A stretch of DNA of 38,746 nt from Deltaproteobacteria bacterium (GCA_026388535.1 JAPLJP010000133.1:45688-84433), one strand, 5' to 3'; counted from the first letter of the stretch, positions 7,220-27,973 are shown. The notes: generated by a model from the sequence alone, not told the origin. Made by a program: numbers and translations.

Positions 7220-7248
7220 TAACAAATTAATTGATTGAAAGAAGAAGC

Positions 7249-8478
7249 ATGAAATTTAAATTGATTTATCCGAAGTGGGAAAAGCTAGACAGGCAAACGC
7301 CGTTTATCTTGCCGCCGCATGGGCCGGTGGTTTTTGCCGCCGCACTGCCTGATTATGTGGATGTGAAATTTATTGATGAAAACATACAGGAGATTGACTT
7401 TGATCAGGCGGCGGATTTTATCGGCATTTCCGTAATGCTGACCGCTCAAATAAAACGCGGTTGGGAAATAGCCGATAAATTCCGCGAAAAAGGAATCAAG
7501 GTTATATTCGGCGGAATCGCCACAATGCTGCACGCTGAAGAAACTCAAGAACATGCCGACTGCGTTTTTCTGGGTGAGGCCGAAGGCCGGATGGAACAGG
7601 TATTCACGGATTTTAAAAACGGCAAACTACAAAAGGTTTATAACTATATGCAGGATTTCCCGGCCATTGAAAATGTCGGGACGGCAAGGCGCGGTATTTT
7701 AAACCGCGCAATGTATAATTACCGAGGCGTGCAGATGGTCGATCTGGTGCACGCGTCGCGCGGCTGCCGCTTCAACTGCTATCCGTGCGCTGTGAGATTT
7801 CTGGGTGGCAGAAGTTTCCGTCCCCGACCCTTTGATAAAGTAGTCGCGGAAATGGCCAGCATTGACAACAACAGGCTTTTCATCGTTGATAATTCTCTGG
7901 CTCAGGACAAACAATGGGAAATGGATTTGTTCAGGGAAATGATTCCTTTGAAAAAGAAGTGGTGCTGTCACCCCATAGAAGATGACGACAAGGTGCTGGA
8001 TCTGGCCGCGCAGGCCGGCGCGTGGTTTGTGTATCAGGCGATTTTCGATTCTTCTGATTTCATCCGCGACCGTATCAAACGCTATCACGATTACGGCATT
8101 GCCGTGGAAGGCAGTATTCTTCTCGGGCTTGATTATCACACTGAAGATTACATTAAAAAGCTGGTTGATTTTCTGCTGGAGGTTGATCTGGATATGGCGG
8201 AATTCACCGTGCTCACCCCTTTTCCGCACACCCGCACGTTTGACGATTTGCATAACGAGAAAAGAATATTCACTTATGATTGGAATAATTACACTTGCGG
8301 AAAAGTTGTTTTTCAGCCTAAATTATTGACCCCGGAAGAATTGCAGTCACTTTATTATTACGCTTGGGATAAATTTTATGAGGAAGAGCCGCAAAATTAT
8401 AAAATGTTCAAGATGCTAAAAAAAGTAATGGATAAAGAAAGGGCGGATGGAACATATAAGCCGCGCGTGCGCAAGTGA
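7249..8478 (+). CDS. Radical SAM protein with N-terminal B12-binding-like domain
   Basis: The product is about 409 residues. Residues 1-140 form a Rossmann-like region of the B12-binding type, and C173, C177 and C180 form the CxxxCxxC motif that binds the [4Fe-4S] cluster and SAM. The C-terminal half continues as a TIM-barrel-like radical SAM domain. The start at ATG 7249 is preceded by a purine-rich AAAGAAGAAG; TTG 7231 is also in frame. The family includes methyltransferases and ring-rearranging enzymes, so a methylation or carbon-skeleton change on the polyketide product is plausible. I cannot see the substrate. It lies alone between two family A repeats, directly after the KS/CLF pair. 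Confidence 0.85.
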   Translation: MKFKLIYPKWEKLDRQTPFILPPHGPVVFAAALPDYVDVKFIDENIQEIDFDQAADFIGISVMLTAQIKRGWEIADKFREKGIKVIFGGIATMLHAEETQEHADCVFLGEAEGRMEQVFTDFKNGKLQKVYNYMQDFPAIENVGTARRGILNRAMYNYRGVQMVDLVHASRGCRFNCYPCAVRFLGGRSFRPRPFDKVVAEMASIDNNRLFIVDNSLAQDKQWEMDLFREMIPLKKKWCCHPIEDDDKVLDLAAQAGAWFVYQAIFDSSDFIRDRIKRYHDYGIAVEGSILLGLDYHTEDYIKKLVDFLLEVDLDMAEFTVLTPFPHTRTFDDLHNEKRIFTYDWNNYTCGKVVFQPKLLTPEELQSLYYYAWDKFYEEEPQNYKMFKMLKKVMDKERADGTYKPRVRK

Positions 8479-14097: not shown

Positions 14098-14302
14098 ATA
14101 CCATTCCGCTTTCAAAGGATAACGAGGCGGCAAGGAGGAGGCGACGAGGCGTATGTGATCTACGCCATTATGGCGCAGATCATCGGTAAGGAAATTATCT
14201 TTTTTTACTGTGCCCCCTTCGGGTGGCACTCCCGTATTTACATACGTTGAGGAAACCGACGACGCAGCCAACAAAGTTAGCCAAAGGACGCGCGGATGGT
14301 AT
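14098..14302 (-). repeat. Family A repeat, copy 4, inverted, with about 80 extra bases at the apex
   Basis: ATACCAT at 14098-14104 and ATGGTAT at 14296-14302 form the ends; in the minus-strand reading the interior order equals copy 1 (GGCTAACTTTGTTGGCTG, CCTCAACGTATG, ATACGCCTCG, CCTCCTCCTTGCCGCC). Between the two halves of the apical CGTAT/ATACG stem lie about 80 extra bases with their own inverted repeats (GATC-CGCC...GGCG-GATC; GTGCC...GGCAC). The element ends ten bases before the exporter start codon. Confidence 0.75.
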
Positions 14303-14312
14303 AAAGGTTTGT

Positions 14313-17300
14313 ATGTCCTTACGTAAATATCAAATTAGATGGTCCATTGTTTTAATCGTTACCCTGATTGTAGCGGCGCTTTTTTTCTGGGAATCCAAAA
14401 ACCTGAAAATTGAAACGGATATTCTGGAATCAATGCCGCACAACGATCCGGTGCTAGCCGACGCGCGCCTTATTATCAGCCATCTGCCCATTCAGGATAA
14501 AGTATTTATTGACCTTGAACAGACAAACCCTGATCGTGACAGACTAATCAATACGTCGGTAGCCCTTTCGGACAAACTCAGCAAAAGCGGCCTTTTCACC
14601 AAAGTCGGCATCGGGGATGACGCAAATATCTTTCCCGAACTCATCGCGCATGTAAACGATAACCTACCATTTCTACTTGGTGCTTCCGATCTGGAGAAAA
14701 AAATCCAACCGCTTCTAACACCGGAAAAAATCAGAGAAGCAATGTCCCAAAACCGTCAGGCGCTGGAGCAGCTCGAAGGAATCGGCCGCAGTGAAATGAT
14801 CGCCAAGGATCCGCTGGGATTCTCTGGCATTATTCTGAGGCAAATGTCCGCCCTGCTTCCCGCCAACAAGGTTCAATTTTATCAGGGGCAGCTGATTTCC
14901 GAAGATGGCAAACACGCTCTGATCATCGCCAGAATCAAAGGATCGGGAACCGATACATCAACCGCGGCCAAAATCGAAAAGCTTCTTGACGACTGCCGCA
15001 ACGAACTGGCAGCAAAAACGGACTCCAACAATAAATATATACTGACATCTGTCGGCGCTTATCGCGCGGCTCTGGATAATGAAACCATCGCCAAGCGCGA
15101 CACCCGGCTGGCCATAATTTTAACGACACTGGGCATCGCTTTGTTGCTTATTTTTTCTTTCCCCCGTCCGCTCATCGGCCTGCTGGCGCTTCTGCCTTCG
15201 ACAGTGGGAGCTATTGCCGCCTTGTTTGTTTGTTCTTTTTTGTTTAGATCTATGTCGATACTGGCTGTTGGTTTCGGCGGCGCCATTATGGCCTTTACCG
15301 TTGATCTGGGAATTACTTATCTGCTTTTTCTGGATCAGCCCTATACTACCTATGGTAAGCAGGTGGCACGGGAGGTTTGGTCGGCGGAACTTCTAGCGGT
15401 GTTGACAACCCTCGGCGCGTTTCTCTTATTGCTGATCAGCGATTTTAAAATCCTGGCGGAAATCGGCGTTTTTTCCGCGCTCGGAGTTGCCTTTGCCCTT
15501 CTTTTTGTTCATACTGTTTTCCCGAAAATATTTCCGGCCATGCCGCCGGCGGCAAAACGAAGCAACCCTCTGCTCTTCAATGCGATTAAAAAAATAGCCG
15601 CTCCGGCAAAGTGGAAATTAATTGCCGCGATCGTCTTTGGCCTGATCATGCTGTTTTTCGCCAAGCCTGTGTTTAATGTCGATCTCAATGCTATGAATTC
15701 CATGAGCGAAAATACGATAAACGCTGACAAAAAAATGCAAAGTGTCTGGGGCAATCTTTCCGGCAAGTGCTATGTTCTTCTGGAAGCTCCGACTCTTGCT
15801 CAACTGCAGAAAAAAAATGATCAGTTAATGGACTGGCTCTCCAATGATGTGCGGCAGGAAAATCTCTCTTCAGTATTTCTGCCTTCCGTCTTGTTTCCGT
15901 CTCAGGATACAGCCCAAAGCAATTTCACGGTCTGGCACGATTTCTGGAATAAAGAGCGAGTGGCGGCTTTGAAGCGCGACTTGAATGCGGCAGCAAAAGA
16001 AAACGGCTTCGCGCCCAATGCTTTTGAACCCTTCTGGAAAATCATTAATCAGGAAAATCCCGGAACCTTCGAAATTCCGCAAAAGTATTTTGAAATGCTG
16101 GGAATTGTCAAAAGTTCCGAGGGCTTCACGCAACTAAGCCTGCTTACCGCCGGAAAAAATTACAACGCGGAAAATTTCTTTGAGCGGATTTCCCAAAGCG
16201 GCCTAGCCAAAATATTTGACGGGGATTTGTTCAACAAAAGGCTGAGCGATTTCCTGAAAAATATTTTTCTGGAAATCGCTCTCATCACCAGCATCGGCCT
16301 GGTGTTGGTGATTTTTTTATTTTATCTCGATTGGCAATTATCGCTTATCGCCCTGGCACCGATTGCCTTCGCGCTTTTAGCCACTCTGGGCACGCTGAAA
16401 ATTATCGGCCATCCGTTGGATATTCCCGGCATTATGCTGTGGATTGTCATTATGGGCATGGGCATTGATTATACGGTTTATTATATCTGCACGTATCAGC
16501 GCTACTATGACGAGGAACATCCGGCAATGGATACAATCAAGATGGCCATGTTTCTGGCGGCATTTACCACATTAATCGGTTTCGGCGTGCTGGCCTTTGC
16601 CAGTCACGCGCTCTTGCGCAGTATCGGAATAGTTTCTTTTTTAGGAATCGGTTATTCTTTAATCGGAGCATATTTTATCCTGCCGGTTTTGATGAAAAAG
16701 ATATTCAGCTCCGTTCAATATCCCACAGGTTCATTTATGGTTGGTTCCCAAGAACATCTGCGCCGGACGGTGGCGCGCTACCGGCATCTGCCGACCTATC
16801 CGCGCGTTTTCGCCAGAATGAAAATGATGATTGATCCGATGTTTAAAGAATTGGATAAGTATGTAAAAAATCCTCGCCGGATTATTGATATCGGTTGCGG
16901 CTACGGAGTTCCCGCTACCTGGCTTCTGGAAATTTATCCACAGGCTGAAGTTTACGGTCTGGAGCCGGATGAAGAACGTGTGCTTATTGCTTCGCGCGCC
17001 ATCGGCAATAGCGGCCGAGCAGAAGTAGGACGAGCGCCTGATTTGCCCAAAGTTGACGCCGCCGTTGATTACGTCCTTATGCTGGATATGCTGCATTTGA
17101 TTAACGATAAAGAAGTGCAGATTGTTTTTCAACGGATTTATGAAAAACTGGAGACAGGTGGAACATTGCTTGTCAGGGCAACAATTCCTTCAGACAAAAT
17201 AAATCCTTGGAAGCGCTGGATAGAAACAGCCAGATTAAAAATCACTAAGGCGCCAAACAGATTCCGCTCTGAATTGGAAATTGTTGATTTCATGAAAAGA

Positions 17301-17378
17301 GCAAAATTTAATGTCCAAGTCTTTTCCTCAGATTTCAAAGGAACTGAGGAAAAGTGGTTTGTAGGGAAGAAGCGTTAG
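14313..17378 (+). CDS. MMPL/RND exporter fused to a class I SAM-dependent methyltransferase
   Basis: The product is about 1021 residues. Residues 1-820 have the two-repeat RND/MMPL layout: one helix, a large periplasmic loop, five helices, a second set with GMGIDYTVYY in the fourth helix of repeat two, and a final helix ending LPVLMKKIF. Residues from about 850 form a methyltransferase with the SAM-binding IDIGCGYG (about 857-864), an acidic VYGLEPDEER strand end, and VLMLDMLHL. In aryl polyene and flexirubin clusters a stand-alone MMPL protein exports the product. Here the membrane pump and a cytosolic methyltransferase share a chain, so methylation may be coupled to export. ATG 14313 has AAAGG six bases upstream; the earlier frame start at 14223 is repeat sequence. 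Confidence 0.88.
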   Translation: MSLRKYQIRWSIVLIVTLIVAALFFWESKNLKIETDILESMPHNDPVLADARLIISHLPIQDKVFIDLEQTNPDRDRLINTSVALSDKLSKSGLFTKVGIGDDANIFPELIAHVNDNLPFLLGASDLEKKIQPLLTPEKIREAMSQNRQALEQLEGIGRSEMIAKDPLGFSGIILRQMSALLPANKVQFYQGQLISEDGKHALIIARIKGSGTDTSTAAKIEKLLDDCRNELAAKTDSNNKYILTSVGAYRAALDNETIAKRDTRLAIILTTLGIALLLIFSFPRPLIGLLALLPSTVGAIAALFVCSFLFRSMSILAVGFGGAIMAFTVDLGITYLLFLDQPYTTYGKQVAREVWSAELLAVLTTLGAFLLLLISDFKILAEIGVFSALGVAFALLFVHTVFPKIFPAMPPAAKRSNPLLFNAIKKIAAPAKWKLIAAIVFGLIMLFFAKPVFNVDLNAMNSMSENTINADKKMQSVWGNLSGKCYVLLEAPTLAQLQKKNDQLMDWLSNDVRQENLSSVFLPSVLFPSQDTAQSNFTVWHDFWNKERVAALKRDLNAAAKENGFAPNAFEPFWKIINQENPGTFEIPQKYFEMLGIVKSSEGFTQLSLLTAGKNYNAENFFERISQSGLAKIFDGDLFNKRLSDFLKNIFLEIALITSIGLVLVIFLFYLDWQLSLIALAPIAFALLATLGTLKIIGHPLDIPGIMLWIVIMGMGIDYTVYYICTYQRYYDEEHPAMDTIKMAMFLAAFTTLIGFGVLAFASHALLRSIGIVSFLGIGYSLIGAYFILPVLMKKIFSSVQYPTGSFMVGSQEHLRRTVARYRHLPTYPRVFARMKMMIDPMFKELDKYVKNPRRIIDIGCGYGVPATWLLEIYPQAEVYGLEPDEERVLIASRAIGNSGRAEVGRAPDLPKVDAAVDYVLMLDMLHLINDKEVQIVFQRIYEKLETGGTLLVRATIPSDKINPWKRWIETARLKITKAPNRFRSELEIVDFMKRAKFNVQVFSSDFKGTEEKWFVGKKR

Positions 17379-17423
17379 CCCGGCGAATGCCGGGAGAAAT
17401 GGTTTGTGGGAAAGAGGCTTTAA
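17355..17423 (+). repeat. 45-bp duplication of the exporter 3' end, with inner hairpin
   Basis: TGGTTTGTAGGGAAGAAGCG-TAG-type sequence at 17355-17378 recurs 45 bases later at 17400-17423 as TGGTTTGTGGGAAAGAGG...TAA, in the same frame and with a stop at the same place. Between them lies a palindrome CCCGGC-GAAT-GCCGGG (17379-17394). The second stop overlaps the acyltransferase ATG as TAATG, the usual coupled arrangement, so the first TAG looks like the newer stop. Confidence 0.65.
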
Positions 17424-18301
17424 TGAAAAAACTACCTTATAAAATATTACTTTATCTTTCCCGCAGGCTGGGGTTGTGGTTTTTCCGCATCTTTTCCTGG
17501 TTCATTGCGACCGGATATTTTTTTCTTTTCCGCACGCGCGTAGCGGAAAGCCTGAAATTTTATCGGGCGCTTTCCCCCGAGCACGGATTTCTCTATCATC
17601 TCTGGTGCGCGTGGAAGCAGTATCATAAATTTACCGATGTCTATATCCACCGTTTCATCCGCCTTGACGAAGAAGATATCGAATATGTCAAAGAAGGCTG
17701 GGAATATCTGGAAGAGGCGGTGCAAAAAAAGACGGGCGCGATTTTGCTGATGTCGCACATCGGCAACTGGGAACTGGCCGCGCAGACGCTCAACCGTAAA
17801 GGACTGCCGATTATGCTTTACCTGGGTGCCAAGCATAAAGAACAGATTGAGCATGTTCAAAAACAGTTTCTGGCGACAAGTGGCGTCCGGGTGGTGGTAA
17901 CCACTGAGGATGAAAAATCTCCTTTCGCTTTAATTGAGGGAATCAATTTCCTGCGCGAAGGCGGCATTGTCTCCATGACGGGCGACCGTCTCTGGGGTGA
18001 ACAGAGTTATGTTACTGTGAATTTTCTGGGACATGAAGTAAATCTTCCGGATACGCCGCATTTATTCGCTCTGATGACGGGAGCGCCGCTGATGACTTTT
18101 TTTGTATATCAGGAGGCTGTCGGAAAATATCATATAAAAGTCTCCCGTGGACGTAAGGTTTTATCCGCTACACGCGCGGATAGAAAAAAAGCTGTGCAGG
18201 AATCGGCACAGGACTACGCCGTGGACCTGGCAGCGTTTGCCCACAAGCATCCTTTCGAGTGGCATCATTTCGAGCCCTTCCTAGGTAAAAAAATCAATTA
18301 G
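17423..18301 (+). CDS. LpxL/HtrB-like lysophospholipid acyltransferase
   Basis: The product is about 292 residues, the normal size. It has an N-terminal hydrophobic anchor (residues 16-36) and the catalytic HxxxxE motif as H112-I-G-N-W-E117 (MSHIGNWELAA), then LREGGIVSMTGDR, typical of the family. These enzymes transfer acyl groups from acyl-ACP to lipid acceptors at the inner membrane. In aryl polyene and flexirubin clusters such a protein attaches the polyene chain to a lipid. ATG 17423 has GAGG five bases upstream and overlaps the second, duplicated stop of the exporter reading frame. The longer frame start at 17354 lies inside the exporter gene. Confidence 0.9.
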   Translation: MKKLPYKILLYLSRRLGLWFFRIFSWFIATGYFFLFRTRVAESLKFYRALSPEHGFLYHLWCAWKQYHKFTDVYIHRFIRLDEEDIEYVKEGWEYLEEAVQKKTGAILLMSHIGNWELAAQTLNRKGLPIMLYLGAKHKEQIEHVQKQFLATSGVRVVVTTEDEKSPFALIEGINFLREGGIVSMTGDRLWGEQSYVTVNFLGHEVNLPDTPHLFALMTGAPLMTFFVYQEAVGKYHIKVSRGRKVLSATRADRKKAVQESAQDYAVDLAAFAHKHPFEWHHFEPFLGKKIN

Positions 18302-18326: not shown

Positions 18327-18355
18327 TTTCCTTTGAGCTTTGCGATTTTTAGTAT
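18327..18355 (+). repeat. Remnant of a family A right end
   Basis: TTTCCTTTGA...TGCGATTTTTAGTAT resembles the last 25-30 bases of family A copy 2 (TATCCTTTGAATGCGACTTAGTAT). No left end is visible. It lies in the 102-base space before the first HTH-like gene. Confidence 0.4.
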
Positions 18356-18363
18356 AAGAAATA
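18348..18363 (+). promoter_or_regulatory. Conserved 16-base box upstream of HTH-like gene 1
   Basis: TTTAGTATAAGAAATA here is identical to the box at 20148-20163, and both lie 40 bases before a paralogous HTH-like gene. GTATAAG could serve as a -10 element, but no good -35 lies at 17 bases. It may be a repeat end, a promoter, or a binding site for the HTH-like proteins. Confidence 0.4.
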
Positions 18364-18403: not shown

Positions 18404-18808
18404 ATGAAAGTAAACGAAGTTCCGCAGGATAACACCCTTGAGTATTATGAAGGTATTAAGCGGGCCTGTTATGCAGTGAATGATGAAGGTAAATACGTCA
18501 TTGTGCCCAGCAACGGCTGGGAAGCGGAAGAATTTATCAATAGCATAGCCGTCAATGAATTGGCTGTTAATCTGGAAAAAACCAGACAAGCGGTGCTGGC
18601 TGGGGAAAAAAGTCCTCTTGCTTATCACATGGAGCGTCGGCAGATGATACCGGATATTCTGGGCAAGACAGCGGGCATTGCCGCGTTACGGGTTAAACGC
18701 CACTTGCGTCCGAAAATTTTTGCCAAGCTCAAAAATTCATTGTTGGAGCGTTATGCGCAAGCTCTCGCGATCAAAATAGAAGAATTAAAAACCGTGCCTA
18801 ATAATTAA
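18404..18808 (+). CDS. Small HTH-like protein, first copy of BtrH-associated pair
   Basis: The 134-residue product starts MKVNEVPQD. Its C-terminal 55 residues resemble a modified XRE-type helix-turn-helix: LGKTAGIAALRVKRHLRP is the presumed turn region and LLERYAQALAIKIEELKTV matches the last helices of that fold. The N-terminal 80 residues are not recognised and may bind a ligand or partner (GWEAEEFIN, VLAGEKSPLAYHME). A close paralogue follows at 20204, and each copy is followed by a BtrH-like gene. GGCAGGAATTATAA precedes the ATG, giving AGGA at seven bases. A regulator or an adaptor of the BtrH-like protein are both possible. Confidence 0.75.
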   Translation: MKVNEVPQDNTLEYYEGIKRACYAVNDEGKYVIVPSNGWEAEEFINSIAVNELAVNLEKTRQAVLAGEKSPLAYHMERRQMIPDILGKTAGIAALRVKRHLRPKIFAKLKNSLLERYAQALAIKIEELKTVPNN

Positions 18809-18822
18809 ACAAGGATAATTTA

Positions 18823-19857
18823 TTGACTACTACAGAAATAACATCCGGTGGAAAACTTTTTTTACATCACCACGCCGCTCATTGCGAAAGCGGCGTCACC
18901 TCGGCTTTGTTCAGAGATAAGGGATTGGAAATCAGCGAACCGATGATTTTCGGCATCGGCAGCGGCATATTTTTCGGCCATCTGCCGTTTGTCCATTGGG
19001 TCGGCCTGCCCATCAGCACTTACCGGTCGCAACCGGGAGCAATTTTCCGCAAGGCAGCCAAAAGACTGGGCGGAAAGTTTGTCACGCAGCATTTTCGCAA
19101 CGCGAAGAAGGGCATGGACGAATTGCGCCGTGTGCTCAAAACCGGACAAATTGTCGGACTGACAACCAACATCTACTGGCTTTCTTATTTCCCCCAGCGT
19201 TTTCGTTTTCAATTCAACGGCCACAACATTATCGTCCTGCGTGAAATCGAAAACGGTTTCCGCGTGAGTGATCCCGTTCTGGAAAAGCCGATGGATTGCT
19301 TAACGGAAGATCTGATCAGGGCACGTTTCGCGCGGGGCCCGCTGGAGCCGCACGGCTTCATGTACTATCCCGTATCCGTTAATCTCAATCCTGATTTACG
19401 CAGAGCCTGTATCAAAGGAATGCTCGATACCTGTAATATGATGCTTAGAATTCCTCTGCCGATTTTCGGTATCCGCGGCATTCGCTTTCTGGCAAAAAGA
19501 ATTATAAAAAGCGAAAAGACTTATGGATTTGAAAACGCCTGCCGGCAGCTGGGAAATATCGTCCGCATGCAGGAGGAAGTCGGCACGGGCGGCGCGGGAT
19601 TCCGCTATATGTACGCCGCCTTTTTACAGGAAGCCGCCGAACTTTTCGGGTCCTCCGAACTAAACGAGTTATCTCAGGAGATGACGGCCGTCGGCGATAT
19701 CTGGCGTGAATTTGCCGTGGTTTCCGCGCGCATTATCAAGAAAAGAGTCAAACAGGAAGAAACTTTTGCCAAAGCGGGAGGTTTGATGCTGATTTGCGCC
19801 GGGCGGGAAGAAGAACTTTTTAAAACTCTGCGTGATGTAGCCGGCAAGCTGATATAA
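18823..19857 (+). CDS. BtrH-like protein, first copy
   Basis: The 344-residue product begins with a BtrH N-terminal-like domain: AHCESGVTSALF with Cys21 and adjacent His20, then ISEPMIFGIGSGIFFGHLPF. In butirosin biosynthesis BtrH transfers an acyl chain from an ACP to an aminoglycoside; the fold is a papain-like cysteine enzyme. The C-terminal half (from about 180) is mostly helical and carries the conserved EEVGTGGAGFRYMYAAFLQEA. TTG 18823 is the start: AAGGA lies eight bases upstream, and the length agrees with the second copy. It lies 14 bases after the HTH-like gene. A role in moving an ACP-bound polyene or amino-acyl group is inferred. Confidence 0.82.
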   Translation: MTTTEITSGGKLFLHHHAAHCESGVTSALFRDKGLEISEPMIFGIGSGIFFGHLPFVHWVGLPISTYRSQPGAIFRKAAKRLGGKFVTQHFRNAKKGMDELRRVLKTGQIVGLTTNIYWLSYFPQRFRFQFNGHNIIVLREIENGFRVSDPVLEKPMDCLTEDLIRARFARGPLEPHGFMYYPVSVNLNPDLRRACIKGMLDTCNMMLRIPLPIFGIRGIRFLAKRIIKSEKTYGFENACRQLGNIVRMQEEVGTGGAGFRYMYAAFLQEAAELFGSSELNELSQEMTAVGDIWREFAVVSARIIKKRVKQEETFAKAGGLMLICAGREEELFKTLRDVAGKLI

Positions 19858-19966
19858 TGAAGTTATTAATATTTTCTGCGTCAGTTTTTGTCCGTTTCTT
19901 GTTATAAACAATCACGGGTATGACTTTTAAAGCGCAATTTGGGTATGTTTTGCATTACATCCTGTT

Positions 19967-20124
19967 CCGCTTCGGGAATACCATGGATATCTTCGATATC
20001 CTCCGCCTATAGCGGGATAATTCAACTAGCAGATATTACTGCACTACATTTGTAATATCTGAGTTTCATTAATTAGACCTGCAAACTTCAGAGCACTGCG
20101 TTTCTGAAATATGGGTCTTGTTAA
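19967..20124 (+). repeat. Family C repeat, copy 2
   Basis: Inverted words (TTCCGCTTCGGGAA near 19967; GATATCTTCGATATC near 19986-20000) precede GGGATAATTC at 20014-20023. A second half contains GCAAACTTCAGAGCACTGCGTTTCTGAAAT and GGGTCTTGTT. An inserted AGATATTAC...GTAATATCT inverted repeat separates the halves. It fills most of the 346 bases between the first BtrH-like gene and the second HTH-like gene. Confidence 0.6.
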
Positions 20125-20147
20125 AAAATTCTTTTCGCATTATTAAA

Positions 20148-20163
20148 TTTAGTATAAGAAATA
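20148..20163 (+). promoter_or_regulatory. Conserved 16-base box upstream of HTH-like gene 2
   Basis: TTTAGTATAAGAAATA is identical to 18348-18363, while the flanks (TTCGCATTATTAAA before, CATTATAAAGAT after) differ. The distance to the start codon is 40 bases in both cases. The identity in otherwise unlike surroundings suggests selection or a shared recent origin. Confidence 0.4.
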
Positions 20164-20203
20164 CATTATAAAGATAAATAACCACATTTGGCAGGAGTTA
20201 ACC

Positions 20204-20623
20204 ATGAAGGTAAACGAAGTACCTCAGGATGACGTCCCAGATTATACAGAGGGGTGGCTAAAAAAAGGGAATTACGCCCTCGATGATGAGGGGAAATATG
20301 TCATGGTCCCCAGCAAGGGATGGGAGGTAGATGAGCTGACAAACAGGTTGGCTTTCAATGAATATGAAGCCAAAGTTGAAGAAACAAGAAAGGCAGTGTT
20401 AGCCGGCCAGAAAAGTCCTCTTGCTTATTATATGGAGCTTAGACAGATGATACCGAAATTTCTGGGAAAAACAGCTGGTATTGCCGCATTCCGGGTCAAG
20501 AGGCATTTGCGTCCGGAAATATTTGCCAAACTCAAAGAGTCTGTTCTGGACAGTTACGCGAAAGCCCTCGAGGTCACGAGGGAAGAATTGAAAACTGTAC
20601 CTCGTAATAACAACCCAACGTAG
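20204..20623 (+). CDS. Small HTH-like protein, second copy
   Basis: This 139-residue paralogue shares MKVNEVPQD, VLAGQKSPLAYYME, RQMIP, LGKTAGIAAFRVKRHLRP and the EELKTVP ending with the copy at 18404; divergence is concentrated in residues 10-60. The same presumed helix-turn-helix occupies the C-terminus. GGCAGGAGTTAACC precedes the ATG, a good binding site. It is separated from its BtrH-like partner by a family C repeat of about 90 bases, unlike the first module, where the gap is 14 bases. The surface differences suggest each copy pairs with its own BtrH-like protein or site. Confidence 0.75.
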   Translation: MKVNEVPQDDVPDYTEGWLKKGNYALDDEGKYVMVPSKGWEVDELTNRLAFNEYEAKVEETRKAVLAGQKSPLAYYMELRQMIPKFLGKTAGIAAFRVKRHLRPEIFAKLKESVLDSYAKALEVTREELKTVPRNNNPT

Positions 20624-20631
20624 CTTCGCTC

Positions 20632-20728
20632 GTGGGATAATTATACTCTTCCGCTAAGCTCCGCATGCGGGATAATTCGACCGGCAAGTTTCAGCGTACT
20701 TTGTTTTTGAAACTTGGGTCTCATTAGA
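20632..20728 (+). repeat. Family C repeat, copy 3
   Basis: GGGATAATTC at 20669-20678 is followed by a perfect inverted repeat CAAGTTTCA (20685-20693) and TGAAACTTG (20708-20716), then GGGTCTCATTAG. Copies 1 and 2 keep the same order but with weaker stems. It lies between the second HTH-like gene and the second BtrH-like gene and ends about 17 bases before the latter's start. Confidence 0.65.
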
Positions 20729-20744
20729 AAGGTAATTACCATTT

Positions 20745-21781
20745 ATGATGACAGAAACTTTAGCCAACGGCAAAACTTATATTCATCGCACGTCCGCGCA
20801 CTGTGAGACGGGAGTCACTTCCGCCTTGTTTCTCGATAAGGGTATTGAAATTTCCGAACCGATGATTTTCGGCATCGGCAGCGGCATTTTTTTCGGTCAT
20901 CTGCCGTTTATCAAATGGACCGGGCTGCCGATCAGTACTTTTAGAACTCTGCCGGGAACGGTTTTCAGCAAGGTATCTAAAAGACTGGGAGCAAAGGTTG
21001 TCAGAAAACGTTTTCGCAATCCGCAAAAAGGCATGGATGAACTGCGCCGTGTCATTCGGACCGGGCAGATTGTCGCGGTCACAACCAACGTCTACTGGCT
21101 TTCCTATTTTCCCAGACGCTATCGCTTTAATTTCAGCGGCCACAACCTCATCGTTTTGTATGAAACTGAAAATGGTTTCCGGGTGAGCGACCCGGGTTTA
21201 CTTGAATACACGAATGATTGTTCGGCGCACGATATGGAAAGGGCGCGTTTCGCTCGCGGACCGATGGAAGCGCGTGGTTTGATGTACTACCCTTTATCCG
21301 TCGATCCCAACCCCGACATCAGGAAGGCCTGCATCACGGGCATGCAGGATTCCTGCAAGCAGATGCTCAAAATTCCCATTCCGCTCTTCGGCGTTAAGGG
21401 AATACGCTATCTGGCAAAAAAAATTGTAAAATGGCCGGAGAAACTGGGCTATGTTGAAGCCTGCCGGCAGTTGGCTCATCTCGTGCGTTTCCAGGAAGAA
21501 ATGGGCACGGGCGGCGCGGGTTTCCGCTATATTTTCGCAGCATTTCTGCAGGAATCTTCCGAATTATTCGAGTCTCCCGAACTAAACGAATTATCCAATG
21601 AGATGACTTCCATCGGCGATATCTGGCGTGAATTTGCCTTGGTCTCCTCGCGCATCATCAAACAGAGAAAAACAAAATCCGAAGAGACATTCGACAAAGT
21701 CGGCGGATTGATGATGATTTGCGCGGGCAGGGAAGAACAGCTTTTCAAGAATCTGCTTGATGTTATTGGTAAACTGAAATC

Positions 21782-21785
<4 letters not shown>
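20745..21785 (+). CDS. BtrH-like protein, second copy
   Basis: The 346-residue product is collinear with the copy at 18823: Cys20 in AHCETGVTSALF, ISEPMIFGIGSGIFFGHLPF, LDELRRV-like middle, and EEMGTGGAGFRYIFAAFLQES near residue 260. Conservation is highest around the Cys and in the C-terminal helical block, so both copies are probably active. The stop overlaps the ABC ATPase start by four bases (ATGA), which ties this copy to the export genes. AAAGG lies about a dozen bases before the ATG. The substrate is unknown; acyl transfer from the nearby ACP to an acceptor is the family-based guess. Confidence 0.82.
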
Positions 21786-22525
<740 letters not shown>

Positions 22526-22636: not shown

Positions 22637-23758
22637 TTGATAAAAAAGCAACTGAAGGAAATCGTCAAAAAAGAAATGCTGATCATGCTTCGCGACAAGC
22701 AGACGATCCTGCTTCTTTTTCTCATGCCGCTGGCCCTGATTTTTTTCATGACTCTGGCGTATAAGGGGGTCTATGCGGACAAAATATATGAAAAGAAAAT
22801 TACGACGGTTATTGAAAACGAATGCAAATCGCCCAAGGCGAACCTGCTTGAGCAAAAAATACATTCGAATAAGATGATTACACGAATAGAGCTGCCTTCC
22901 GGTTTTGATAAAGACCGTGTTTTTGAACAGGGCAAAGCGCAGGTACTTATTGTAATCCCCAAAGGGTTTGAGGAAGGAACACGACCTGTGGAACTTTATT
23001 TTGATCCAGTATTCGATACGGGTTACAAGATAGCCGTCCGTTCGCTGATGACCAGCCTGACGGTGGAAGTCGTCATGGGCATCGAAAACATTGATGCCGT
23101 GGTTGCCGGTATGATCACGGAAAAAACAAAGAAAGAGATGGCTGTTCCCAGTCCTCTTCAGATGGCGGTGCCGGCTTACGCGATATTCGCGATGTTTTTT
23201 ATCGCGATTCCCATGTCCATCGGCTTTCTGAAAGAAAAAAATGACGGTACTTTGCAGCGTCTTTTTACATATTCGGTCAGCCCCAGCGTCATTGCCCTGG
23301 GGAAAATCATTCCTTATTATGTCATCAATATTATCCAGTTTGCCTTAATGCTGTTTGTCGGCGTTTTTATCGCACCCTACGTTATCGGTACACCTTTTCA
23401 AATGGGCACCCATGTCTGGCATTTAATCCCTGTTACTCTGATCGTGGCGGCCGCGACAACCGGTTTCGGGGTGCTGATCGCGACGCTGGCTAAAACGCTC
23501 GAGCAGACGTCAACGCTGGCAGCGACGGGTGCCATATTGATGGGCGTGCTGGGCGGTATCATGGTGCCTCACTTTGTCATGTCACGTGCGATGCAAAAAC
23601 TGGCGATGATATCGCCGATATACTGGGCGCATCAGTCTTATCTGGATGTTTTTCTGCGTGACGCTGATTTTAAAATAATACTGCCGAAACTGGCCATTCT
23701 GTTTTTTTTCGCACTGGCTTGTTTCTTAATAGCGGGAAGGAGAGTTAAATGGATGTGA
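22637..23758 (+). CDS. ABC-2 type permease (ABC2_membrane_3 form)
   Basis: The 373-residue protein has one N-terminal helix (about 22-40), an extracytoplasmic domain of about 130 residues, and five helices from about residue 175 to the end, the typical form of YhaP/YbhR-like permeases. FLKEKNDGTLQRLFTYSVS is the usual cytosolic coupling stretch. TTG 22637 is the start, supported by AGGTG eight bases upstream. The last ten bases overlap the ACP start, so export and carrier protein are co-translated, which favours a pathway-specific exporter. Confidence 0.88.
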   Translation: MIKKQLKEIVKKEMLIMLRDKQTILLLFLMPLALIFFMTLAYKGVYADKIYEKKITTVIENECKSPKANLLEQKIHSNKMITRIELPSGFDKDRVFEQGKAQVLIVIPKGFEEGTRPVELYFDPVFDTGYKIAVRSLMTSLTVEVVMGIENIDAVVAGMITEKTKKEMAVPSPLQMAVPAYAIFAMFFIAIPMSIGFLKEKNDGTLQRLFTYSVSPSVIALGKIIPYYVINIIQFALMLFVGVFIAPYVIGTPFQMGTHVWHLIPVTLIVAAATTGFGVLIATLAKTLEQTSTLAATGAILMGVLGGIMVPHFVMSRAMQKLAMISPIYWAHQSYLDVFLRDADFKIILPKLAILFFFALACFLIAGRRVKWM

Positions 23759-24060
23759 GTCAGAAGTTGAAGGAGTTAAACGTATCATCAAAGGATGAAT
23801 TGATTTTCAAACTCAAGGAATTGATCATCAGGGCATGTGAAATTACGGATGTCAGACCGGAGGATGTGCCCACGGATGTCCCCTTTATCGGCGGTCCGGG
23901 ACCGCTGATACTGGACAGCCTCGACGCCATGGAGATCGCCATGGAAATAAGATATGAGTTCGGCGTGGAATTAAAAAACGCCTCGACGGCGGCCAAGGCG
24001 ATGCGGTCATTCGACTCGCTGGCCGATTTTATCATCGAAGCGCCAAAGGTTAAAAGATGA
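23749..24060 (+). CDS. Acyl carrier protein
   Basis: The 103-residue product has the phosphopantetheine attachment motif LDSLDAMEI with Ser57, followed by EIRYEFGVEL, as in ACPs. It is slightly longer than FabC-type ACPs (about 80 residues), having about 20 extra N-terminal residues. It would carry the growing chain for the flanking ketosynthases. It overlaps the permease by ten bases and the next ketosynthase by four. It is the only ACP in the window, so it probably serves both KS/CLF pairs. Confidence 0.9.
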   Translation: MDVSQKLKELNVSSKDELIFKLKELIIRACEITDVRPEDVPTDVPFIGGPGPLILDSLDAMEIAMEIRYEFGVELKNASTAAKAMRSFDSLADFIIEAPKVKR

Positions 24061-25217
24061 GTCAGTCAGACATTTACATGCGCGGCTGGGGTGCGGTAAC
24101 GTCACTGGGCTGGAGCGCTCCCGATTCGGCATGTAATTTAATCGCGGGAAAAGCTCCACCGGCAACACCAGGGCTATCCTCGCATTTAATCAACCGTGAA
24201 TATAAGGCCTTTGAAGTTTCTTATTCCGGCAATCCTTTGGATAAAGCGATGGCAATGCTGGATAGCGCTCTTGAAGAAGCTTTTGCAAAGGCTGAACTAT
24301 CCGCGGAAGAAATTGCCGAATCCAGCGTGCTTGTGGGAACAACGGGCGGTCTCTTTATCCGTAACGAATATGAATTTACCGAGGCCGTGCGTAAAAATCC
24401 CGGCAAAGAATCACCGGCTATTTCGTGCCGCAACCGCGGCCCCGGGGAGGTCGCCGATTTAATCGTTAATAAATATGGCATCAAGGGGCTGTCGCTAACT
24501 TTCAGTATGGCCTGCGTTTCGAGTTCGCATGCCTTGGTTGTCGCTGCCGATCTTCTAAAACAGAAAAAAATCCGCCGTGCAATAGTTGTCGGTTTTGAAC
24601 CGCTTTTGAACATGACCTTGCACGGATTCGCCAGCCTGCTCCTTTTTGATTACGACCAATGCCGCCCGTTTTGCGCGACCCGTGCCGGAATGCAAATCGG
24701 CGAAGCCGCCGCCGTTGTTATTCTGGACGCGGATGAATCATCTTCCTCAAAATATAAATTTGCCGGCGGCTATCAGTACAACGATATAAAAAGTATGACT
24801 TCGGCGGGCATTGATGGTGTAACTGTCAGCGAGGTTGTCGGGCAAACATTAACATCCGCGCGTATATCTGCCGGCGATGTTGTGGCAATTAAGGCCCACG
24901 GCACAGGCACAAGGGATAACGATCTTTCCGAGGGAAGAGGTCTGGTCAAACTTTTTGGAGAAAAACTTCCTCCGGTGGTTTCCCTCAAAGGAGCTATCGG
25001 CCACACTCTGGGAGCGGCGGGAGCCGTGGAAACAGCCGTATGGCTTTCCTGCTGTAAAGAAGGATTTATTCCGCGCAGTTTCGGTTTTACGGAAATCGAT
25101 CCCGAAATCGGTTTCGCGCCCTCACAAAAAAATATTGAAGCGCGCGACGGCGCTTATTTGTTTACTTTTTTCGGTTTCGGCGGAACATGCTCGAGTTATT
25201 TGATTATCAAAGAGTGA
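24057..25217 (+). CDS. Beta-ketoacyl synthase, active, short form (KS2)
   Basis: This 386-residue ketosynthase is about 25 residues shorter than FabF but keeps the active site: Cys153 (MACVSSS), His281 (KAHGTGT), Lys311 and His316 (GAIGHTLGAAGA). The start overlaps the ACP stop as ATGA. Sequence outside the active site is quite different from KS1, so it is not a recent duplicate. It is followed, after a family B repeat, by a degenerate ketosynthase, so a second KS/CLF-like pair seems to exist. It may do an initiation or specialised extension step. Confidence 0.88.
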   Translation: MSQSDIYMRGWGAVTSLGWSAPDSACNLIAGKAPPATPGLSSHLINREYKAFEVSYSGNPLDKAMAMLDSALEEAFAKAELSAEEIAESSVLVGTTGGLFIRNEYEFTEAVRKNPGKESPAISCRNRGPGEVADLIVNKYGIKGLSLTFSMACVSSSHALVVAADLLKQKKIRRAIVVGFEPLLNMTLHGFASLLLFDYDQCRPFCATRAGMQIGEAAAVVILDADESSSSKYKFAGGYQYNDIKSMTSAGIDGVTVSEVVGQTLTSARISAGDVVAIKAHGTGTRDNDLSEGRGLVKLFGEKLPPVVSLKGAIGHTLGAAGAVETAVWLSCCKEGFIPRSFGFTEIDPEIGFAPSQKNIEARDGAYLFTFFGFGGTCSSYLIIKE

Positions 25218-25346: not shown

Positions 25347-26360
25347 ATGAAAAAAACAAACCAAAAGAAATTTAATACAGCCATGCCGGTTATTGCCGCA
25401 AGCTATATCGGCCCGGCGCTGACTATCAATAGCGACGCGCTTTGGGAAGAAGACAAATTGCCGCTGAATACCGACGGACTGGTCAACGAAGTCATGGGAC
25501 AGCCGATGCGTCGCGCCGGAAGATTTATCAAGATGGTCTGCTGCGGAGGTCTGTCCTGTCTGCAAAAGGTATCGCTCGATTATTTGAAAGGGAAAAAAAC
25601 CGGCATATTTCTGTCAACGGGATTAGGAAACGTTGATGAAATAATGCCCTTTATTACCCAGGTATTCAAGCATGGCGGCGGATTCCCCAGCCCCAATCAA
25701 TTTGCCAATTCGGTAAGCAATGCCGCCGCGTTTGTTCTGGCGCGGATTTGTGAAGTTACTGGAACTGTTCTGACTATCTCTCAGGAAGAGTTATCATTCG
25801 AGTCGGCTTTATGGCTCGCGCAAAGTTATCTGGAAAGCGACGAAATAGAACTGGCGCTGGTCGGCGGCTGTGATATTTTCACTCCCACTGTTGAGGAATA
25901 CCGCGAACGAGTTAATCTAACGCCGGACAACTCCCGTGCGATAGTTATGGGCGAAAGCAGTTCCTGGCTTTTGCTTGGCAAGAGCGAAGGAGAAAAAATA
26001 GGAGACATTCTGGCGGTTGATTTCGGCAACAAATTAATTGCGTCGGAAGAATTCTCCAAAAGCGAAAATATTTTAAGCCGAAGCGAAAAACTTATTTCAG
26101 CTTCATTTTCCAAGGAAAGCGCCGGACGGATAAAAAACCGTTTTCTTCTGCCGGGTTTCCGCGTGAATAAAATTAATGCTGAATTCTGGAAACAAAAAGG
26201 ATGGAAAATTGACGATTACCTGCCTTTCTGCGGCATTCACTCAACGGCTGCGGCATTCGGCATAGCGCGCGCCCTGCGGGAAAAATCATCTTCTCTTTTT
26301 GTGCATTATAACTGTCACGCTTCGGGCAAACAAGTTCTTGTCCTCGCGTCAACAGAATAA
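25347..26360 (+). CDS. Degenerate ketosynthase-like protein (CLF2), 337 aa
   Basis: The product is related to the N-terminal thiolase-fold half of ketosynthases, but shorter than usual (337 residues). FPSPNQFANSVSNAAAF and LALVGGCDIFTPT place it in the family. The catalytic Cys position aligns with Glu148 (ISQEELS), and no NAHGT or GHTLGAAG block is seen; the end reads IHSTAAAFGIARAL and YNCHASGKQVLVL instead. It is probably non-catalytic and may pair with KS2 as CLF1 does with KS1. Similar short ketosynthase-like proteins occur in aryl polyene clusters. A weak binding site precedes ATG 25347. Confidence 0.75.
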   Translation: MKKTNQKKFNTAMPVIAASYIGPALTINSDALWEEDKLPLNTDGLVNEVMGQPMRRAGRFIKMVCCGGLSCLQKVSLDYLKGKKTGIFLSTGLGNVDEIMPFITQVFKHGGGFPSPNQFANSVSNAAAFVLARICEVTGTVLTISQEELSFESALWLAQSYLESDEIELALVGGCDIFTPTVEEYRERVNLTPDNSRAIVMGESSSWLLLGKSEGEKIGDILAVDFGNKLIASEEFSKSENILSRSEKLISASFSKESAGRIKNRFLLPGFRVNKINAEFWKQKGWKIDDYLPFCGIHSTAAAFGIARALREKSSSLFVHYNCHASGKQVLVLASTE

Positions 26361-26521: not shown

Positions 26522-27973
26522 ATGGTTCTCTCTCAACAAAAAAAACGAATCGTCCTCGTTCATCCGCGTGGGTTCAACTGGTTCCCCGGAAAGCACGATA
26601 TCACTGATATCGCCAACCGGATGGTGCCGCAGGGTCTGCTTTCCATTGCCGCCTATTTGGTACAGAAAGGACATGATGTTTTCGTTTACGACTGCCTCGG
26701 ACCGGATGCTTCTTTTGATCTGCAAAAACAGGCCGAGGCGATTTTAGCTTTTCAACCACAGATTGTCGGCTTCTCAGCGACAACATCGTCGTTCCCTGAC
26801 ACCGCATGTCTTGCGCAAATAATAAAGGAGCAATCTTCTCACACGATAACAGTGTGCGGAGGAGTTCATGTCTCCGCTCTGGATGGAATACTTTTGCGGA
26901 ATTATCCAGCTTTTGATTTTATGGTTGCCGGAGAAGGCGAAGAAACAATGTCCGAACTTGCCTCCGGTCCTGACCCCGCTGAAATCAAAGGATTAATCTG
27001 GCGCCACCAGGAAGAAGTAATTACCAACGAGCCGCGTCCTAAAATACCGGATTTGGATTTTCTGCCATTTCCCGCCTATGAAAAACTTAAAGGGTTTCCC
27101 CGCGACTATCACCTGCCTTTATTCAGTTACATCAATACTCCCGGCGCGACAATGATTACTTCGCGCGGATGTATGTATCAATGCTCCTATTGCGACCGTT
27201 CAGTCTTTAAAAAAGGTTTCCGCTATAATTCCGCCGCTTACATTTATGAGCACATGAAATACTTGCGGGATAAATTCGGCGTTCGGCATATCAACATTTA
27301 TGATGATTTATTCACCGCCAACCGCCGGCGGATAGTCGAACTTTGCGAAAAACTATGCCGTTGTCCTCTGGGAATTAATTTCAACTGCGCCGTGCGCGTG
27401 GGCTACACTGATGATGATTTACTGAAGATGCTTAAAAGTGCCGGATGTCTTATGGTTTCGCTGGGTATTGAGTCGGCCGATCCGGAAATGCTCTCAAGGC
27501 ATAAATCAGGCGTATCGCTTGATGAAATGCGCGATACTATACAGCGAATTCAAAAGGCTGGCTTGCGCGCCAAAGGACTTTTTATGATGGGCCTGCCGGG
27601 AGAGACGGAAGAGTCAATTAAGCGTACATCAGATTTTATTATTTCGCTTGGCCTGGACGATATGAACATGTCCAAATTCACACCCTTCCCCGGTGCGCCG
27701 CTTTGGGCAACCATTCACGAAGAAGGAACTTTTAAAGAAGACTGGCAATTGATGAACTGCCTGAATTTTGTTTTTGTGCCCAAAGGAATTGATTCCAAAG
27801 AAAGACTCGATCAGCTTTACAACGAGCACGTAAAACGTTTTTATTCCGACAAAGCATGGCGCGAAAAATTTCGCAAACGCATCTGGCAGCATCGCAAAAG
27901 CCTTATGTATTTACTGCGCCATCTGCCATCTTTCTGGTCAGCAAAAAATCAGTTCGAACCCAAAAGCAATTAA
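26522..27973 (+). CDS. B12-binding-type radical SAM protein
   Basis: The 483-residue protein has an N-terminal B12-binding-like domain (residues 10-145; QIVGFSATTSS, CGGVHVSA, VAGEGEETM) and a radical SAM domain with C217, C221 and C224 (SRGCMYQCSYC), then GIESADPEML and LPGETEES. This is the standard form of class B radical SAM methyltransferases and of HpnJ/BchE-like enzymes. It is only distantly like the radical SAM protein at 7249. It closes the co-directional cluster, so a tailoring step on the product is likely, but it could be an unrelated neighbour. The binding site before ATG 26522 is weak. Confidence 0.88.
   Translation: MVLSQQKKRIVLVHPRGFNWFPGKHDITDIANRMVPQGLLSIAAYLVQKGHDVFVYDCLGPDASFDLQKQAEAILAFQPQIVGFSATTSSFPDTACLAQIIKEQSSHTITVCGGVHVSALDGILLRNYPAFDFMVAGEGEETMSELASGPDPAEIKGLIWRHQEEVITNEPRPKIPDLDFLPFPAYEKLKGFPRDYHLPLFSYINTPGATMITSRGCMYQCSYCDRSVFKKGFRYNSAAYIYEHMKYLRDKFGVRHINIYDDLFTANRRRIVELCEKLCRCPLGINFNCAVRVGYTDDDLLKMLKSAGCLMVSLGIESADPEMLSRHKSGVSLDEMRDTIQRIQKAGLRAKGLFMMGLPGETEESIKRTSDFIISLGLDDMNMSKFTPFPGAPLWATIHEEGTFKEDWQLMNCLNFVFVPKGIDSKERLDQLYNEHVKRFYSDKAWREKFRKRIWQHRKSLMYLLRHLPSFWSAKNQFEPKSN

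Follow-up and report, generated by a model that had tools for sequence, protein, structure and literature searches.

The window analysed here is a stretch of 38,746 nucleotides from a deltaproteobacterial genome assembly (GCA_026388535.1, JAPLJP010000133.1:45688-84433). Its host is an anaerobic, Smithella-like member of the Desulfobacterota, and the nearest named genomes are those of Smithella and other Syntrophaceae. A two-gene unit lies in tandem at positions 18404-21785, in two copies, with all four open reading frames on the + strand and in the same order. This is the duplicated module of an HTH-like small protein and a BtrH-like protein described in the original prediction, whose coordinates proved exact. 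Both small proteins score above the curated cut-off of the NCBIfam family DarG_fam (NF053536), and both BtrH-like proteins above that of DarH_acyl (NF053550); we refer to them as DarG and DarH. Neither small protein reaches the 170 bits required for the flexirubin DarG equivalog NF053545; they score 125.2 and 119.4 bits. The features of the module are given below.

17354..18301, + strand: LpxL-like acyltransferase (Pfam Lip_A_acyltrans), the upstream module boundary, retained in the deletion of genome G261
18331..18363, + strand: promoter-like element of DarG copy 1, CTTT...TTTAGTATAAGAAATA, repeated at copy 2 and matching a family-wide consensus
18404..18808, + strand: DarG copy 1, 134 aa, 142 bits to NF053536 (cut-off 70), type 1 by tree
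18823..19857, + strand: DarH copy 1 (type 1), 344 aa, TTG start, 405.5 bits to NF053550 (cut-off 300), Cys21/His134/Asp150
20131..20163, + strand: promoter-like element of DarG copy 2, placed by repeat alignment, exact core and family-wide pattern
20204..20623, + strand: DarG copy 2, 139 aa, 133.7 bits to NF053536, type 2 by tree, model pLDDT 89
20745..21785, + strand: DarH copy 2 (type 2), 346 aa, 392.9 bits to NF053550, Cys20/His133/Asp149
21782..22525, + strand: ABC transporter ATPase (Pfam ABC_tran), order conserved
22637..23758, + strand: ABC-2 type permease (Pfam ABC2_membrane_3), order conserved
23749..24060, + strand: acyl carrier protein (Pfam PP-binding), pI 4.7
24057..25217, + strand: beta-ketoacyl-ACP synthase in the darJ position (Pfam ketoacyl-synt), Azoarcus order
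25347..26360, + strand: KS-like protein in the darK position (weak Ketoacyl-synt_2 match), order conserved

The likeness between the copies is far above chance, with 67% identity across 135 aa for DarG (E 6e-67) and 68% across 342 aa for DarH. The DNA repeats are in register at a spacing of 1.8-1.9 kb and include the 33-nt upstream element. The small proteins keep their ends and differ at residues 10-60, as had been predicted: identity is 100% over residues 1-9, 49% over residues 10-60 and 76% over residues 61-132. The Cys motif and GTGGAGFRY block that had been named for the BtrH-like proteins are likewise kept, and both copies carry HCE(S/T)G and GTGGAGFRY. With a dS between copies of 1.9 and 1.1 and a dN/dS of approximately 0.1-0.2, the duplication is old and purifying selection acts on both copies. 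A recent duplication is ruled out by the high dS and by paralogue types that are common to several genera. Short repeats ending GGGATAATT are present in the gaps flanking DarG copy 2 (window 20622-20677 and about 20010), and perhaps belong to an interspersed repeat family.

The element upstream of DarG has the consensus AAATTTnCTTTGCGCnnTGTTAAATTTAGTATAAGAA, drawn from an alignment of 43 copies, and precedes DarG of every type. In a scan of the window's genome, exact matches to its 16-nt core are confined to the two DarG copies. Across 51 genomes the spaced pattern gives 33 matches, 31 of them upstream of DarG, one in the deletion scar of G261 and one elsewhere; the reversed-pattern control gives one. 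Other cluster genes lack the element; the one exception is a weak match ahead of the ammonia-lyase gene in the window. It is non-palindromic and looks like a spaced -35/-10 pair, and its form and place suggest that it is a promoter.

DarG_fam and DarH_acyl take their names from flexirubin/dialkylresorcinol (dar) operons. The dar operon for arcuflavin in Azoarcus sp. BH72 was described in 2014, and its pigment was predicted to be a polyene-resorcinol ester (PMC3949708). From the pair onwards, the window genes follow the order of that operon (darD, E, F, I, C, J, K), and DarG and DarH are darD and darE by position (PMC3949708). The genes called darG and darH in the Azoarcus paper are a PHD/PilT pair, unrelated to DarG_fam and DarH_acyl (PMC3949708). 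The order common to the window and the dar operon is small protein, BtrH-like protein, ABC ATPase, permease, acyl carrier protein, KS and KS-like protein, and the carrier protein at 23749..24060 is probably the acyl donor for DarH. Compared with known dar operons, the window has two tandem pairs rather than one, no darA or darB in front, and a promoter-like element for each pair. In most phyla DarG follows directly behind darB within the operon, without room for a promoter of its own. Upstream of the pairs in the window are genes for the LpxL-like acyltransferase, an MMPL-methyltransferase ORF, a GT2, an aromatic ammonia-lyase and two FabF-like proteins.

DarH comprises the Pfam domains BtrH_N and DUF4872, and its model has a papain-like fold with a helical C-terminal half (pLDDT 88 in the linked-chain model described below). 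The closest folds are those of CtaG (Z 24.5), AziU3 (Z 24.4) and CcbD (Z 21.5), the last of which has also been solved with its own carrier-protein domain. DarH shares one fold over approximately 300 residues with BtrH, CcbD and CtaG, which are carrier-protein-dependent papain-fold acyltransferases, and with AziU3, but is only 9-15% identical to them. The Cys-His-Asp triad is invariant in 19 diverse sequences, both window copies included, and corresponds to C11, H128 and D144 of CtaG, which according to PDB titles have been mutated there. On these sequence and model comparisons the activity of DarH is likely to be acyl transfer. The original prediction had proposed a possibly new acyl-transfer system; acyl transfer stands as likely, whereas novelty is ruled out since both families are named in NCBIfam and the Azoarcus operon was published in 2014 (PMC3949708). 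The chemistry of BtrH, CcbD, CtaG and AziU3 concerns N-acyl or aziridine products, whereas an O-acyl (ester) product would be expected for DarH. DarH is accompanied by DarG, and AziU3 likewise has a small partner, AziU2.

The DarG model (pLDDT 89) contains an XRE-type HTH at residues ~66-134, in agreement with the predicted HTH-like character of the small protein. This domain matches SinR, P22 c2 and DdrO at Z ~9 over 61-66 residues, and also superposes (Z ~9) on the HTH parts of the enzymes HEPD, MPnS and HppE. AziU2 is absent among the fold matches listed. Unlike XRE/Cro-type HTH domains in general, DarG also has a VPQD motif, an N-terminal beta hairpin and a 26-residue helix. A Pfam search of the window proteins assigns it to no HTH family, and it is found almost only beside DarH. 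When sequences of solved structures were compared with the DarG profile, a weak match to 4mud (E 0.036) was the sole return, and a plasmid search for DarG found none. The HTH half is basic, with a computed pI above 10, and V-K/R-R-H in the recognition-helix region is conserved over six phyla.

DarG and DarH occur together almost without exception. Above cut-off they are found in an identical 19 of 247 genomes of the phylum and in an identical 40 of 51 genomes of the family, and in the public genome collection DarH adjoins DarG at 76 of 78 DarG loci. The two exceptions are followed by opposite-strand genes (L217) and by a dnaA-like gene (L244), the second of which is possibly an assembly join. 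Divergent DarH-like proteins, below cut-off, are found without DarG. The co-occurrence search bears out the suggestion that the two are dedicated partners. A small gene without its BtrH-like neighbour is a rarity, so that the refuting outcome named in the original prediction, a small gene that mostly lacks BtrH, did not arise, and the pair has been duplicated and lost together. We modelled the pair from locus L173. Its type 2 DarG shares 90% identity with window copy 2, and its DarG and DarH genes lie in the same reading frame, separated by one stop codon. With that stop read as Gly, the linked chain has a pTM of 0.83, which is no proof of a complex because the two proteins are joined by a short tether and pTM is not an interface score. 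The model suggests that DarG and DarH form a complex.

Smithellaceae genomes contain one to three DarG-DarH pairs, which belong to three paralogue types. In the trees of both proteins one set of 13 pairs groups as type 2 and one set of 14 as type 3, while type 1 is not resolved as a single clade in the DarG tree. Such congruence would also be expected from operon co-inheritance alone. Combinations per genome include 1, 2, 1+2, 1+3, 2+3 and 1+2+3, always with DarG before DarH; the window genome has 1+2. The pairs are inherited and lost as units. Types 1 and 2 are separated by fixed differences at 10 DarH and 4 DarG positions, and 5 of the 10 in DarH are at most 8 residues from the triad, a window of ±8 that was chosen post hoc. 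In genome G261 (L333:10947-13483) the stretch that starts behind the promoter-like element and runs to the KS genes has gone, and the scar reads acyltransferase, promoter-like element, radical-SAM gene. This is a natural deletion of the whole DarGH-ABC-ACP-KS module. In trees of the ABC transporter one clade occurs solely with single type 1 pairs; single type 1 pairs are present in both transporter clades, and we claim no link between transporter lineage and pair type. Genome G264 has a small open frame (L132:9724-9960) just upstream of an intact type 2 pair; it matches DarG weakly and is perhaps a decayed pair.

A full-length darB-family gene is present at a separate locus in 19 of the 51 family genomes. 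In the window genome (L256:7440-8059, contig C91) the start of a radical-SAM gene is fused to the C-terminal part of darB. This single-contig locus is a deletion remnant, which could reflect either a real loss or an error in the MAG. A search of the same genome for darA, with one query and no positive control, found no match. Given the darB remnant and the lack of a darA match, the ancestral resorcinol acceptor is probably not made in this genome. Of the 39 genomes with pairs and rpoB, 29 have type 1, and 18 of these also have darB; the 10 without type 1 all lack it (Fisher p 6e-4). Placed on the rpoB tree the comparison reduces to approximately three independent contrasts (median p 0.5), which are too few, so that the link between type 1 and darB is suggestive only.

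The neighbours of darB fall into two exclusive sets. Among 66 loci that hold darB, darA is present at 36, always without an adjacent radical-SAM gene; at 27 others an orthologous B12-type radical-SAM gene is adjacent and darA is absent from the same stretch. The remaining three comprise two near contig ends and the remnant of the window genome. Comparison of these neighbourhoods suggests that the radical-SAM enzyme may replace the aromatase DarA in anaerobes, and the exclusivity hints at an oxygen-independent route to dialkylresorcinols. Radical-SAM genes beside darB are seen at L257:9878-12362, L258-L262, L264-L275, L135, L137, L139-L141, L144, L216, L236 and L249.

We consider it moderately probable that the module works as an acyltransferase of two subunits in an aryl-polyene/dar-type pathway, and that the paralogue pairs differ in acceptor or chain. 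The family scores, strict pairing and tree agreement all point this way, as do the CtaG/AziU3/CcbD fold, the invariant triad, the linked-chain pTM, the operon order shared with Azoarcus and the fixed differences near the triad (5 of 10). Counted against it are the failure to find darA, the broken darB, and the private promoter at an HTH gene, which fits autoregulation. What the substrates are, that the two proteins form a physical complex, what DarG does and that the pairs have specialised on different acceptors are all inferred. DarH, with its papain fold and Cys-His-Asp triad, would load an acyl chain, most likely aryl-polyenoyl, from the acyl carrier protein of the cluster as a Cys thioester. 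It would then pass the chain to a hydroxyl group, that of dialkylresorcinol in the ancestral pathway, after which the ABC transporter would move the product. DarG would be an obligate partner of DarH whose XRE-type HTH serves as a protein-binding module rather than a regulator, and its task may be to stabilise DarH or to dock the carrier protein. In the Smithellaceae the pair and its own promoter would have been duplicated early to give types 1, 2 and 3. These may have diverged partly around the DarH active site, so that the acceptor or the acyl chain probably differs from pair to pair.

Other readings of the same observations differ mainly in the role of DarG and in what the second pair is for. 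DarG could be an XRE-type DNA-binding autoregulator that controls the pair to which it belongs, DarH or the DarH product acting as co-effector, with an operator at each copy; this would suit the structural match to SinR and P22 c2 (Z ~9), the basic HTH half and the private element, found almost exclusively upstream of DarG copies. That element, however, is non-palindromic and resembles a spaced -35/-10, no Pfam HTH family is matched, and the close HTH counterparts within HEPD, MPnS and HppE belong to enzymes. Conservation of V-K/R-R-H over six phyla is also unlike typical operator-specific helices. Because DarG lies operon-internal behind darB in most phyla, we lean towards a partner subunit rather than the sensing regulator that the original prediction had offered beside an adaptor. 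We keep autoregulation as a quite unlikely possibility on account of the private element at the Smithellaceae copies. The elements enter again into the proposal that the second pair is a dosage or regulatory duplicate, with the same substrates and with expression that differs through separate promoters. Fixed differences between types 1 and 2 at so few positions (4 in DarG, 10 in DarH) would agree with this, but the types are deep and ancient and stay distinct over several genera, pairs 1, 2 and 3 each occur alone or without the others in some genomes, and the fixed differences cluster partly near the triad. We judge a dosage duplicate to be unlikely.

The identity of the acceptor is a separate matter. 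It is quite possible, if short of probable, that the modules here acylate a non-resorcinol compound such as a glycolipid, glycerol or an outer-membrane lipid, the resorcinol branch having been lost; this is compatible with the two-subunit acyltransferase. The absent darA match and broken darB of the window genome agree with such a loss, as does the lack of darB in all 10 family genomes that have pairs but no type 1, and the genes preceding the pairs encode a glycosyltransferase, an LpxL-like acyltransferase and an MMPL exporter. Against this, the type 1 pair and whole operon are intact in the window, the tree-aware type 1/darB contrasts are too few, and the darB deletion comes from one MAG contig. 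A rather doubtful extension of the two-subunit acyltransferase is a multi-paralogue kit. Each pair would then have a promoter to itself and a specificity of its own for acceptor or acyl chain; type 1 would act on a resorcinol from an anaerobic darB pathway (with a B12-type radical-SAM enzyme in place of DarA), and types 2 and 3 would have taken on new acceptors after the loss of darB.

The families DarG_fam and DarH_acyl and the dar operon are already known, and the multi-paralogue form is new. New here are the strict co-occurrence of DarG and DarH, the three paralogue types, the private element and the predicted folds of both proteins. The families have names but no mechanism, and in the dar literature that we found the polyene-joining enzyme is not assigned via DarG/DarH. 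Natural variants with one, two or three pairs, the G261 deletion and the loss of darB make partner specificity and acceptor choice testable.

Several further genes were noted in the window and at another locus. The MMPL-methyltransferase frame (window 14223-17378) is a single ORF that joins an MMPL-type exporter to a C-terminal methyltransferase domain. On either side of the polyene and pair genes lies a gene for a B12-binding radical-SAM protein (window 7231-8478 and 26522-27973), and the second of these proteins has sub-cut-off scores with HpnJ, BchE and a ladderane-associated family. At L006:9919-19288 a divergent upstream cluster encodes OleA-D-like proteins (KSIII, alpha/beta hydrolase, AMP-ligase and 3beta-HSD-like), together with two amine-oxidase/desaturase-like flavoproteins, a FabA-like dehydratase and reductases.
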